Positions 24,652-27,392 of a stretch of DNA of 33,432 nucleotides are shown piece after piece. This DNA comes from Acidobacteriota bacterium (GTDB lineage Bacteria; Acidobacteriota; Blastocatellia; Pyrinomonadales; Pyrinomonadaceae), in NCBI GenBank assembly GCA_003222845.1, contig QHXG01000112.1:1-33432 (forward strand), read 5' to 3'. Position numbers and translations under genes: made by a program. The notes beneath the pieces are model-generated. The model saw only the letters and a list, made by a program, of their open reading frames with translations, was not told the origin of the DNA and did no database searches. The first letter of the stretch is position 1; each line of letters opens with the position of its first letter.

Positions 24652-25563
24652 CTAAGTCAGCACCGGTACCATGAATTCTTCACTCTCATCTTCAGCATGG
24701 CCATGTTCCGCATGACCGTCATGCGGCGCGTGCGAGACCTCGCTTAGATATAGCTGCGACAGCAGCACGAACACGAAAGTTTGAATAAAAGCAACGAACA
24801 GGCTCAGCGGCATAAGCAAGATCGGCACCAGCCAGTAGGTCACTCCGGGGACCAGGTGCGCGATAGTGTCCAGCACCTTCTCGTCGGCGAACATGTTGGC
24901 GAAAAGACGAATGCCGAGGGTGAACGGTCTGATTAGATTGCTTATCAATTCGATGGAAAAGATTAGCGGAGCAATCCACCAGATGGGACCGGCGAAATGT
25001 TTCAAATGCCCGAACAGCCCATTCTCTCTGATGCCGATGTAGTTGTAGTAAATGAATGACGACAGACCGAGCGCGAACGTCACACTGGTCGCCGACGTCG
25101 GCGACATGAAGAGCGGAAACATTCCCATCAAGTTTGAAATGAGAATCAGCACCGCAAAGGTCATCACCACCGGGAAATACTGCAAACCATGCGGACCAAC
25201 GATGTCTTCCAGCATGCTGCGCACGGCGAGCACGCCAACCTCGAGCGTCTGTTGCCCAGGTCCCGGCTCTTCTTCGGAAAGTCTGCCTTTCAACATCCAG
25301 ATCACTACCAGACTGAGAATGCAGGCGACGACGAACATCACCGTGTACCACGGGATCGCATTCTCCGGTGTGTACGGGCCGAAAGCGGCTTCCGGCGTGG
25401 AACCAAATTTTGCCAAGAACTTTTGCCAGAACGGATAGGTGTACTTCATTTCGAAGTCATAAGCCGTCTGGCCAAAATATTGATTGACAAGCTTCACCAA
25501 GATCGGCGCCTGCTCCACTTGCTCGGCAGCTTTCTCAGCTTGCTCCTGAAAGAAAAGGAACAT
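24652..25563 (-). CDS. atpB: F0F1 ATP synthase subunit a
   Basis: ATG at 25563, sharing a base with the atpI stop (TAATG), is chosen over an upstream TTG-type extension, giving 303 residues. Subunit a forms the ion half-channels next to the c ring. The essential Arg is in IRPFTLGIRLFANM, followed by the conserved final helix LSLFVAFIQTFVFVLLSQLYLSE. At least five hydrophobic segments are visible. The N-terminal 60 residues are longer and more charged than in E. coli, and the C-terminal tail is His/Asp/Glu-rich (APHDGHAEHGHAEDESEE), possibly metal-binding (inference). An AGAGGAA site precedes the start by 9 bases. F1 genes are not in the window. Confidence 0.95.
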   Translation of the reverse strand: MFLFFQEQAEKAAEQVEQAPILVKLVNQYFGQTAYDFEMKYTYPFWQKFLAKFGSTPEAAFGPYTPENAIPWYTVMFVVACILSLVVIWMLKGRLSEEEPGPGQQTLEVGVLAVRSMLEDIVGPHGLQYFPVVMTFAVLILISNLMGMFPLFMSPTSATSVTFALGLSSFIYYNYIGIRENGLFGHLKHFAGPIWWIAPLIFSIELISNLIRPFTLGIRLFANMFADEKVLDTIAHLVPGVTYWLVPILLMPLSLFVAFIQTFVFVLLSQLYLSEVSHAPHDGHAEHGHAEDESEEFMVPVLT

Positions 25564-26000
25564 TAGAAAGATTCCTCTCGATGAATAATAGCGAAATAGA
25601 ATTGTCTGCCGGCTTCGACGAACAATGCCGGCACAAACGCACACAGCCCGGCGATAGTCGCCGGCAGCGAAACCAGTCGCAGCTTATACGCGGCGAATGA
25701 AATCACGCCAATAACAAAATAACGAAGAATGTATCGCGATGCTTTTGCCTGCGGTCTCTCAGAAGGGATGTTGACGTTGAAGACGGCAGCGACCGAGGTC
25801 CGCAGCCAGTGATAATTCAACAGCGCAAGAGTTCCACCCAGCAACAATCCGCCGGTAACGCGCCACGGCGCGAGGATCGCGCTGGCCATAACGGCAAGAC
25901 CGACGGTAACAACCATCGCGAAGAACACACGCGTCTCGATTGCGGTATTGCTTCCGCCCGAGAACTGATCCGTGCTTACACTGTCAGGAATCCGTGTCAT
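25563..26000 (-). CDS. atpI: ATP synthase subunit I-like membrane protein
   Basis: The 145-residue protein has four predicted transmembrane helices (FFAMVVTVGLAVMASAIL, GGLLLGGTLALLNYHWL, ILRYFVIGVISFAAYKL, PATIAGLCAFVPALFVEA). Size, topology, the GxLLxxxNxxWL-like pattern in helix 2 and its position directly before atpB fit AtpI, an assembly helper of the c ring, whose sequence is poorly conserved. The stop overlaps the atpB ATG. No good ribosome site is seen before the ATG at 26000. It could be some other small F0-associated protein, but the location makes atpI the best call. Confidence 0.8.
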   Translation of the reverse strand: MTRIPDSVSTDQFSGGSNTAIETRVFFAMVVTVGLAVMASAILAPWRVTGGLLLGGTLALLNYHWLRTSVAAVFNVNIPSERPQAKASRYILRYFVIGVISFAAYKLRLVSLPATIAGLCAFVPALFVEAGRQFYFAIIHREESF

Positions 26001-26079
26001 GAATTAAGCGGACGATTTTACATGGCGGGGAACAAGTTGCCAACTTGCGGTGGGAAGAGGAGTTCCCGCTATCAAAAGA

Positions 26080-26235
26080 GCGGCTCTGCCGCCGCATAGT
26101 GCGGAAAGGCTCTGCCTTTGCGGGCCAGTGGACTCTCGATCAATCTTCATCCTGAGGCTAAGCCTCAGGATGTAGCGAAGGCTGGACTTTGACGGTAAGC
26201 CGGAGGCTTACCGCACTGTGCTGCGGCGGAGCCGC
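26080..26235. repeat. Cloverleaf-like palindromic element with three internal hairpins
   Basis: Outer arms 26080-26104 and 26211-26235 are inverted repeats with small indels. Inside are three hairpins in a row: AAAGGC/GCCTTT (26105-26119), CATCCTGAGGC/GCCTCAGGATG (26148-26172, perfect 11 bp with a 3-base loop) and GGTAAGCC/GGCTTACC (26194-26212, perfect). It occupies the gap between the slipin stop (26265) and atpI, which diverge in no obvious operon. No ORF is present. Confidence 0.85.
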
Positions 26236-26264: not shown

Positions 26265-27320
26265 TCATCGTAACTGCCGTGGCGGCGGTGGCTGTTGCGA
26301 TTGGTCTGAGGGCTGCTTCACACCCGTCTCGGCAAACATCTCTTTAATTGTTCCGACCGCGGAAAGCATGGTTGACGTTTCGACCGGCATGAAGATCACT
26401 TTGGCGTTATTGCTCTTGGTCATGTCACGCAGGCTTTCGATATAGCGCGTTGTGATCAAATACTGCGCTGGATTGCCGTGTTCCTGCATCGCCTGAGCAA
26501 CCTGAGCAATCGCCTGCGCCTCAGCTTCGGCCTGACGCAGGCGCGCCTGGGCCAATCCTTCGGCCTGCAAAATGTTCGATTGCTTTTCGCCTTCCGAACG
26601 AGTTACGGCTGCTTGCTTCTCGCCTTCAGCTCTGGTGATCGCCGCCTGGCGCTCACCTTCGGCCTGCAACACCAGGGCCCGACGCGTTCGCTCTGCGGTC
26701 ATCTGTTTCTCCATAGTGATCCGCACATCGTCGGGTGGATTGATGTTCTTCACGTCCACTCGCGTGACTTTCACCCCCCACTTGTCCGTCGCCTCGTCCA
26801 GAATGAGGCGCAGCTTCCCATTAATCTGATCGCGCTGCGACAGCGTATGGTCCAGATCCATATCACCCATCACGGCGCGCATGCCGGTGATCGTTAACTG
26901 CACAATCCCTCCTACCAGATCGTTCATCTCGTAAAGAGCTTTGACAGGATCGGTCACTTGCCAGTACACGACTGAATCGACGTGAATGGTGACGTTGTCG
27001 CGGGTAATGACCGGCTGCGGCGGCAGGTCGAGATATTGTTCGCGCAAGTCGATCGAAGTCATGCCCGGTCGCGTGTTCGTCCAGTAAACCCCGCGCGGCT
27101 TGTCCAGGAACGGCACCAGGATGTTAAGGCCGCTCGCCGCCACGCGGTTGAAACGGCCGAGCCGCTCAACCAGCATCACGGTCGCCTGCGGCACGATCTT
27201 AATGGTCTTGATCGCAATGATCAGCAGCACCAGGCCGATAAAAAAGAGGAAGAAAAGCAACAGGATTGTTCCTATGGCTACTCCCTCTCCCTGCAAAAGA
27301 ATCAAATTTGCAAATGTCAT
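26265..27320 (-). CDS. SPFH/band 7 membrane protein, slipin (stomatin-like)
   Basis: ATG at 27320 follows a perfect GGAGG at 7 bases, so it is preferred over the TTG at 27338; the product has 351 residues. An N-terminal membrane segment (TILLLFFLFFIGLVLLIIAI) is followed by the SPFH domain (IKIVPQATVMLVERLGRFNRV, PGMTSIDLREQYLDLPPQPVITRDNVTIHVDSVVYWQV) and a long Ala/Glu/Gln coiled coil (RALVLQAEGERQAAITRAEGEKQAAV, near residues 215-275). The C-terminus is Gln/Pro-rich. Members form membrane scaffolds and often sit beside an NfeD-type protease partner; none is adjacent here. The gene is monocistronic between the amidase gene and the palindrome. Confidence 0.93.
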   Translation of the reverse strand: MTFANLILLQGEGVAIGTILLLFFLFFIGLVLLIIAIKTIKIVPQATVMLVERLGRFNRVAASGLNILVPFLDKPRGVYWTNTRPGMTSIDLREQYLDLPPQPVITRDNVTIHVDSVVYWQVTDPVKALYEMNDLVGGIVQLTITGMRAVMGDMDLDHTLSQRDQINGKLRLILDEATDKWGVKVTRVDVKNINPPDDVRITMEKQMTAERTRRALVLQAEGERQAAITRAEGEKQAAVTRSEGEKQSNILQAEGLAQARLRQAEAEAQAIAQVAQAMQEHGNPAQYLITTRYIESLRDMTKSNNAKVIFMPVETSTMLSAVGTIKEMFAETGVKQPSDQSQQPPPPRQLR

Positions 27321-27392
27321 CGCATTACCTCCGCGCAATCCGACTTCGTGGTTTTTGGGGTGCCACTATATCGAAAGGCTCGTTGTTCGACA

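Follow-up and report, generated by a model that had tools for sequence, protein, structure and literature searches.

A REPIN-like miniature element between the slipin and atpI genes of an acidobacterium, probably derived from a RAYT-bearing element of TIRtron type

Introduction

IS200/IS605 enzymes cut and rejoin hairpin ends in single-stranded DNA, and insertion proceeds without target duplication. REPINs and GTAG REPs are short, dispersed, inverted hairpin doublets found with few copies per genome of a RAYT, or REP-associated tyrosine transposase (PMC3116915, accessible part). The accessible parts of the published accounts present these enzymes as stationary: RAYTs are apparently incapable of self-mobilisation (PMC3116915), and REPtrons are said neither to transpose as a unit (PMC6006769) nor to be able to self-propagate (PMC3733652). 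A further arrangement, the TIRtron, is described in the accessible text of PMC3733652 as a RAYT-like gene with terminal inverted repeats, of a kind other than GTAG REPs, on either side; some of these repeats form dispersed families, often as dimers, and a TIRYT group from Acidobacteria is described.

The element reported here lies in a 33,432-nt stretch of DNA from an Acidobacteriota bacterium of the Pyrinomonadaceae (GCA_003222845.1, contig QHXG01000112.1), called the window below. With a probability of roughly 0.85 we take it to be a non-autonomous miniature transposable element (MITE), REPIN-like, whose 43-nt ends are predicted RAYT recognition ends; on the best reading a RAYT element of the kind published as TIRtrons would be both its source and the agent of its movement. 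In its described features the family agrees with TIRtrons, a type already known to include Acidobacteria. As in TIRtrons, a RAYT-like Y1 gene lies between inverted repeats, the unit consensus lacks GTAG, and the same repeats are dispersed, also as dimers. Unlike the published group, this one belongs, by record titles, to another acidobacterial lineage; in it short and long copies share their ends, relics of internal deletion are present, and a site can be compared with its empty counterpart. With long, short and partly deleted copies sharing their ends in related genomes, the origin of REPINs and the self-movement of RAYTs become addressable.

The element and its fold

The element sits in the gap between a slipin gene and atpI, 29 nt after the former and 79 nt before the start of the latter (Table 1). 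The first-pass annotation saw here an outer inverted repeat enclosing three hairpins, two of them perfect with arms of 11 and 8 bp; this layout stands, as do the 11-bp arms, and the second perfect hairpin proves to have arms of 9 bp. The DNA fold of the element has an energy of -60.8 kcal/mol, where shuffles average -36.5 (sd 3.4; z -7.1), and the RNA fold gives z -5.7; none of 200 shuffles folded as well in either form. The window contains no Rfam match, and a folded-RNA role, also raised at first pass, may be a side effect. Separately, a small palindrome, CAAGTTGCCAACTTG, lies at 26033-26047 just upstream of atpI; it is kept in genome G030, occurs with paired changes in G059, and may serve to regulate the ATP synthase operon.

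Table 1. Features of the window element and its neighbours (positions in the window), and RAYT loci of the subfamily grouped by the arrangement of units.
Feature	Position or loci	Strand	Remarks
atpI	25563-26000	minus	Pfam ATP-synt_I
Whole miniature element, 156 bp	26080..26235	.	two inverted units at family spacing
Left 43-nt end unit	26080..26122	+	model R1 65.4 bits, E 9.6e-11 (own genome); itself a row of R1
Outer small hairpin H1, left end	26080..26092	.	5-bp arms; 16 units of the own genome have 98.7% of cells paired
Hairpin H3, left end	26102..26122	.	9 pairs, one G.G mismatch in the window; two-sided changes at 3/9 pairs (16 own-genome units)
Central hairpin	26148..26172	.	11-bp arms, perfect; two-sided changes at 6/11 pairs (18 copies)
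Right 43-nt end unit, inverted	26193..26235	-	model R1 69.1 bits, E 1.6e-11 (own genome); itself a row of R1
Hairpin H3', right end	26193..26213	.	9-bp arms, perfect; two-sided changes at 3/9 pairs (18 copies)
Outer small hairpin H1', right end	26223..26235	.	97.7% of cells paired in 18 copies; two-sided changes 0
Outer inverted repeat	26080-26118 / 26197-26235	.	39 nt, 82% complementary
slipin	26265-27338	minus	Pfam Band_7
RAYT inside a simple inverted pair of units	L221, L222, L227, L228, L230, L231, L232, L234, L236, L238, L242-L246, L248, L250		L221 is the locus of L183, L222 that of L156
RAYT with whole short elements on both sides	L225, L226
RAYT with units one-sided or otherwise arranged	L223, L224, L233, L235, L240, L241, L249
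RAYT without unit at E<=0.01	L229, L237, L239, L247

A dispersed family with hairpin-bearing ends

The repeated unit is each 43-nt end with its own hairpins. A 201-bp query found 20 matches in the element's own genome, and an alignment of 16 of the 18 units in the own-genome stretches (two weak C568 units were left out) had 96.9% of the cells in its two hairpins paired, and 4 of 14 pairs showed two-sided changes; shuffles matched the 16 units 4 times in 500 for the number of changed pairs and never in 500 for the number of cells. The pattern GGCTNNGCCGCNGCAC with two mismatches was no commoner than its control in a first-look count (194/198 vs 222/192) and, because it showed no excess, was replaced by the model R1. 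At E<=0.001 R1 recovered at least 30 units in the own genome, a floor given that 150 of 3982 first-look candidates were scored, and a count in which 16 rows match by construction.

Among 99 genomes of the window's bacterial family, with 64 candidates scored per genome so that counts of 64 are floors, units were present in 62, spread over 15 of 29 genera and including all seven genomes of the window's genus. A degenerate exact pattern, run across 84,980 species genomes, returned 74 stretches, all titled as Acidobacteriota MAGs, under the names Acidobacteria, Blastocatellia, Pyrinomonadaceae or Chloracidobacterium. We also considered a phage-borne element and rejected it, the exact unit pattern occurring in no IMG/VR stretch. 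A literature search on the 43-nt repeat family, covering mostly papers outside subscription, found no paper.

Distinct elements with paired units number 76: 70 from the 74 named stretches, partnerless units being left out, and six from the own genome, whose weaker pairs, for example on C327, C563, C568, C707, C385 and C82, were excluded. In length 68 of them fall between 145 and 175 bp. By a simple palindrome rule, 37 interiors hold two short hairpins, mostly GAGGCTNNGCCTC and GAGGCNNAGCCTC, and 29, the window copy among them, hold one that is usually longer; one has three, six have none, and the other three elements are long. Median identity over 73 copies is 0.73 for the whole element and 0.60 for the interior. 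It had been proposed that the structure is a composite of three smaller repeats inserted into each other, a chance nesting that the presence of several hairpins within an outer repeat might bring to mind; we regard this as having a negligible chance of being right, since the complete arrangement recurs, its order fixed and its size range narrow, in 76 distinct copies, and the central hairpin of the window has no second occurrence in its own genome even with three mismatches allowed. The annotation would have been refuted by a lack of other copies of the combined form; such copies do exist among the 76 distinct elements.

Conservation bears on the local hairpins, which follow one another in a row, and not on the long stem of the cloverleaf. 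In 18 copies of the single-hairpin class, hand-picked and including some close relatives for which the shuffles are uncorrected, 97.7% of cells in the five local hairpins were paired and 55 changes were two-sided, a result seen in none of 500 shuffles. The long stem formed by pairing arm with arm was paired in 86.8% of cells, and all 500 shuffles did at least as well. As the local hairpins beat the shuffles and the arm-to-arm pairing falls below them, the cloverleaf stem is not the conserved feature. Over the whole unit there is no excess of arm-to-arm mismatch (7.2 vs 7.4 when re-paired). At one hairpin pair the A/T choice is the same in both ends of 19 of 61 elements against 30.8 expected (P 0.00075; 61 of the 76 elements could be typed and the other 15 were dropped). 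Opposite choices at the two ends could mean either that left and right ends are distinct by descent or that a long perfect palindrome is avoided.

Pair-conserving changes in the hairpins might alternatively reflect replication template switching that perfects palindromes, and not selection for recognition by a transposase. Template switching is documented as a mutation process in the accessible literature, and the changes of A-T to T-A type on both sides, with few unpaired intermediates, are what it would leave; we consider it possible but less likely than not, as the fixed layout, the spread of copies and the association with RAYT genes set out below would go unexplained.

The base before an element is T or C in 83% of cases and the base after it A or G in 87%, and the GTAG tag is absent. 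In genome G075, AGGCG follows 6 of 30 elements (right flanks of L180, L203, L164 and L195), several with TTGA beyond; this may mean that certain targets are preferred or that a subfamily has been extended on one side. As a presumably mobile doublet of two inverted units, the element would work like a REPIN and yet falls outside the class as defined by GTAG: neither GTAG nor GGAG stands at the hairpin foot, each end carries more than one hairpin, and a RAYT is often inside the element.

RAYT genes within long copies

Two long copies, L183 (784 bp) and L156 (742 bp), carry between their inverted units, with inner hairpins beside it, an ORF of 181 and 185 aa respectively. The L183 protein passes the model NF047646 (REP-associated tyrosine transposase) at 81.8 bits against a cut-off of 80, and Pfam Y1_Tnp marginally (23.7, cut-off 23). 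Among PDB sequences, a profile of 14 homologues matched only TnpA-REP (4er8), and weakly (E 9e-4); the predicted structure of the L183 protein (pLDDT 92.8) had 4er8, the E. coli TnpA-REP with a REP hairpin, as its best structural match (Foldseek E 4.9e-7; Z 13.2, rmsd 2.7, 134 aligned), followed by transposases of the ISDra2 and IS608 types. A Thg1-type fold also matched, with Z up to 9.2, which we took as a shared core fold. Y134, which we take to be the catalytic tyrosine, and the second histidine are invariant in 14 of 14 homologues, the first histidine in 13. The other suggestion made at first pass, a recombination substrate, thus comes close, in that the same ends elsewhere enclose the gene of a predicted hairpin-binding Y1 (HUH) transposase. 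The element shares with IS200/IS605 and its miniature derivatives a Y1 transposase fold, hairpin ends and insertion without target duplication; it differs in that the ends are inverted copies of one unit and the enzyme passes a RAYT model, and the sizes of 742-784 bp would leave no room for tnpB.

The link with this RAYT subfamily appears specific. At E<=0.01, at least one unit was found at 26 of 30 loci of the subfamily, and in 17 a simple inverted pair encloses the gene (Table 1); among the best Y1_Tnp genes of the 99 family genomes, none of 30 loci had a unit, 18 of these loci lying in unit-bearing genomes and the other 12 being uninformative because their genomes have no units. The own genome's eight best Y1_Tnp loci also had no unit (0/8), a result that spoke against a RAYT link until the lower-scoring subfamily surfaced inside a long element. 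Scored by genome with RAYT at E<=1e-15, units and RAYT occurred together in 47, units only in 15, RAYT only in 2 and neither in 35 (Fisher 1.6e-12), and by genus at E<=1e-38 the counts were 10/5/1/13 (Fisher 0.0017); any Y1_Tnp gene is also associated with units (61/1/24/13, 6e-6), and all these statistics ignore relatedness among genomes. The 15 of 62 unit-bearing genomes in which no RAYT of the subfamily was found at E<=1e-15 are drafts; three of them, G048, G073 and G060, have 49-62 units each.

The own assembly, which is 92% complete, holds fragments of this RAYT subfamily and no intact copy. A 338-bp element (C783:2164-2501) has lost the middle of the gene but keeps both its ends, residues 1-37 and 155-179, within a single open frame, a 421-bp element (C82:7193-7613) has kept residues 128-180, and on C664 residues 1-66 remain beside a lone unit. 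Internal deletion of long elements to give short ones would leave just such a series of relics, and ends common to RAYT-bearing copies and internal-deletion forms are what places the element among MITEs. With only decayed RAYT in the assembly, the window copy may at present be immobile.

Presence and absence at orthologous sites

Two copies in G075 (L180, 6754-6905 and 7688-7840) separated by about 0.8 kb show 99% identity, and their 150-bp flanks resemble each other no more than by chance (0.60 and 0.59 vs a null median of 0.59). Where copies lie on separate contigs of a genome, they are 85-91% alike with flanks at 0.55-0.61. In one cross-genome pair, L212/L169, the flanks are alike (0.77 and 0.75), for which common descent is the best reading; L179/L167 and L164/L194 possibly share common descent as well. 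Similarity stops at the left edge of the unit, and on the right three L180 copies partly share some 15 further bases. Direct repeats of at least 4 nt flank none of the 76 elements (0.35 expected), and so there is no target duplication.

At the window locus, the slipin-atpI gap contains the element in the own genome and in G053 and lacks it in G030, G059 and G064; in G002 and G045 atpI is not next after slipin. The slipin tree joins the own genome to G030 (80/86) and G053 to G064 (100/100), so that this patchy presence needs two gains or several losses. Units occur at 2 of 32 slipin loci, those of the own genome and G053. The flanks of relatives are too diverged for the exact junction of the window copy to be read. 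After slipin, G064 (L145) has a different palindrome, a GCGGGCATCC/GGATGCCCGC repeat, and G002 (L143) two GTAG-led hairpins; this side of the gene seems open to palindromic insertions.

A task in the cell, as a two-way transcription terminator or a stabiliser of mRNA 3' ends kept for its RNA or DNA structure, would suit an element with strong hairpins on both strands, 50 of 62 examined copies of which lie outside crude ORF calls though ORFs make up 86% of the stretches. We think such a role improbable: placed copies lie mostly between tandem genes (34 of 48, with 9 between convergent and 5 between divergent genes), they face gene 3' ends (52) and 5' ends (44) about equally, Rfam has no match, presence at orthologous sites is patchy, and elsewhere the same hairpin ends enclose a transposase gene.

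Comparison at a second site involved a long copy. In G030 a RAYT-bearing copy lies between two neighbour genes 821 nt apart, and in the five other members of the genus having both genes the orthologous gap has neither unit nor RAYT (0/5), measuring 36-115 nt in four and 505 nt, with other content, in G045; the own genome has no match to the neighbour gene used. In flanks of 1.5 kb, shorter at contig ends, 7 of 406 genome pairs had a neighbour gene in common at their RAYT loci (3 of the 95 within-genus pairs), and 266 of 406 (95 of 95 within genus) at the slipin loci of the same 29 genomes. The comparative evidence suggests that the RAYT-bearing copy arrived or left whole, and partial deletions would tie it to the short copies.

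Two accounts of these loci have to be weighed. It may well be, at about even odds, that the RAYT of this lineage is neither immobile nor domesticated and rides a transposon that moves as a unit, the REPIN-like elements being its deletion derivatives with intermediates caught. A classical REPIN/REPtron arrangement, in which a single-copy RAYT stays in place, short elements alone are mobilised and neighbourhoods vary by horizontal transfer and gene loss, is possible though somewhat doubtful. It accords with the published treatment of RAYTs and REPtrons as immobile units, so far as the accessible texts go, with subfamily copy numbers of mostly one or two per genome, and with L225 and L226, where whole short elements stand beside the gene as in REPtrons. 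It does not readily account for the 17 of 30 RAYT genes that are enclosed in the manner of an IS, beyond mere flanking, for a RAYT-bearing copy placed exactly between two genes whose gap is empty of unit and RAYT in five of five congeners, or for the internal-deletion relics. No near-identical pair of RAYT genes was seen within one genome, identities to the query differing. At L226/L259 (G075:C7, about 277,800-279,900) the RAYT gene is flanked by whole short elements with a third nearby, a REPtron-like cluster in a family that elsewhere encloses the gene.

Discussion

Taken at the level of sequence comparison, the analysis establishes the family and its ends, their occurrence around one RAYT subfamily and not around the other Y1 genes compared, the deletion derivatives, and presence and absence at orthologous sites. 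Under the reading we prefer, a MITE derived from a RAYT element of TIRtron type, a copy of 0.7-0.8 kb would supply the RAYT, and this Y1 HUH single-strand transposase would bind the end hairpins in single-stranded DNA, cut and rejoin the ends, and insert the element without target duplication; short elements would be moved by it in trans, and would themselves have been born from long ones through internal deletion.

What is added here is evidence pointing to a RAYT element that moves as a unit. If this is true, it would represent the autonomous ancestral state already proposed for REPINs. The step from transposon to repeat population becomes directly testable in this family, which may help to explain the origin of such bacterial repeats.

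The own genome probably harbours a further family of REP-like repeats, served by a RAYT of its own. Its mark is a second 16-mer, CGCTCTGCCGGCGCAC, which is present, among the first places listed, as inverted pairs 84-116 bp apart (for example G000:C14:4197-4300, C103:4749-4851, C207:6044-6154 and C225:7741-7840, and also L011:404-516), and one such pair, that of L011, lies about 1 kb from a Y1_Tnp gene.
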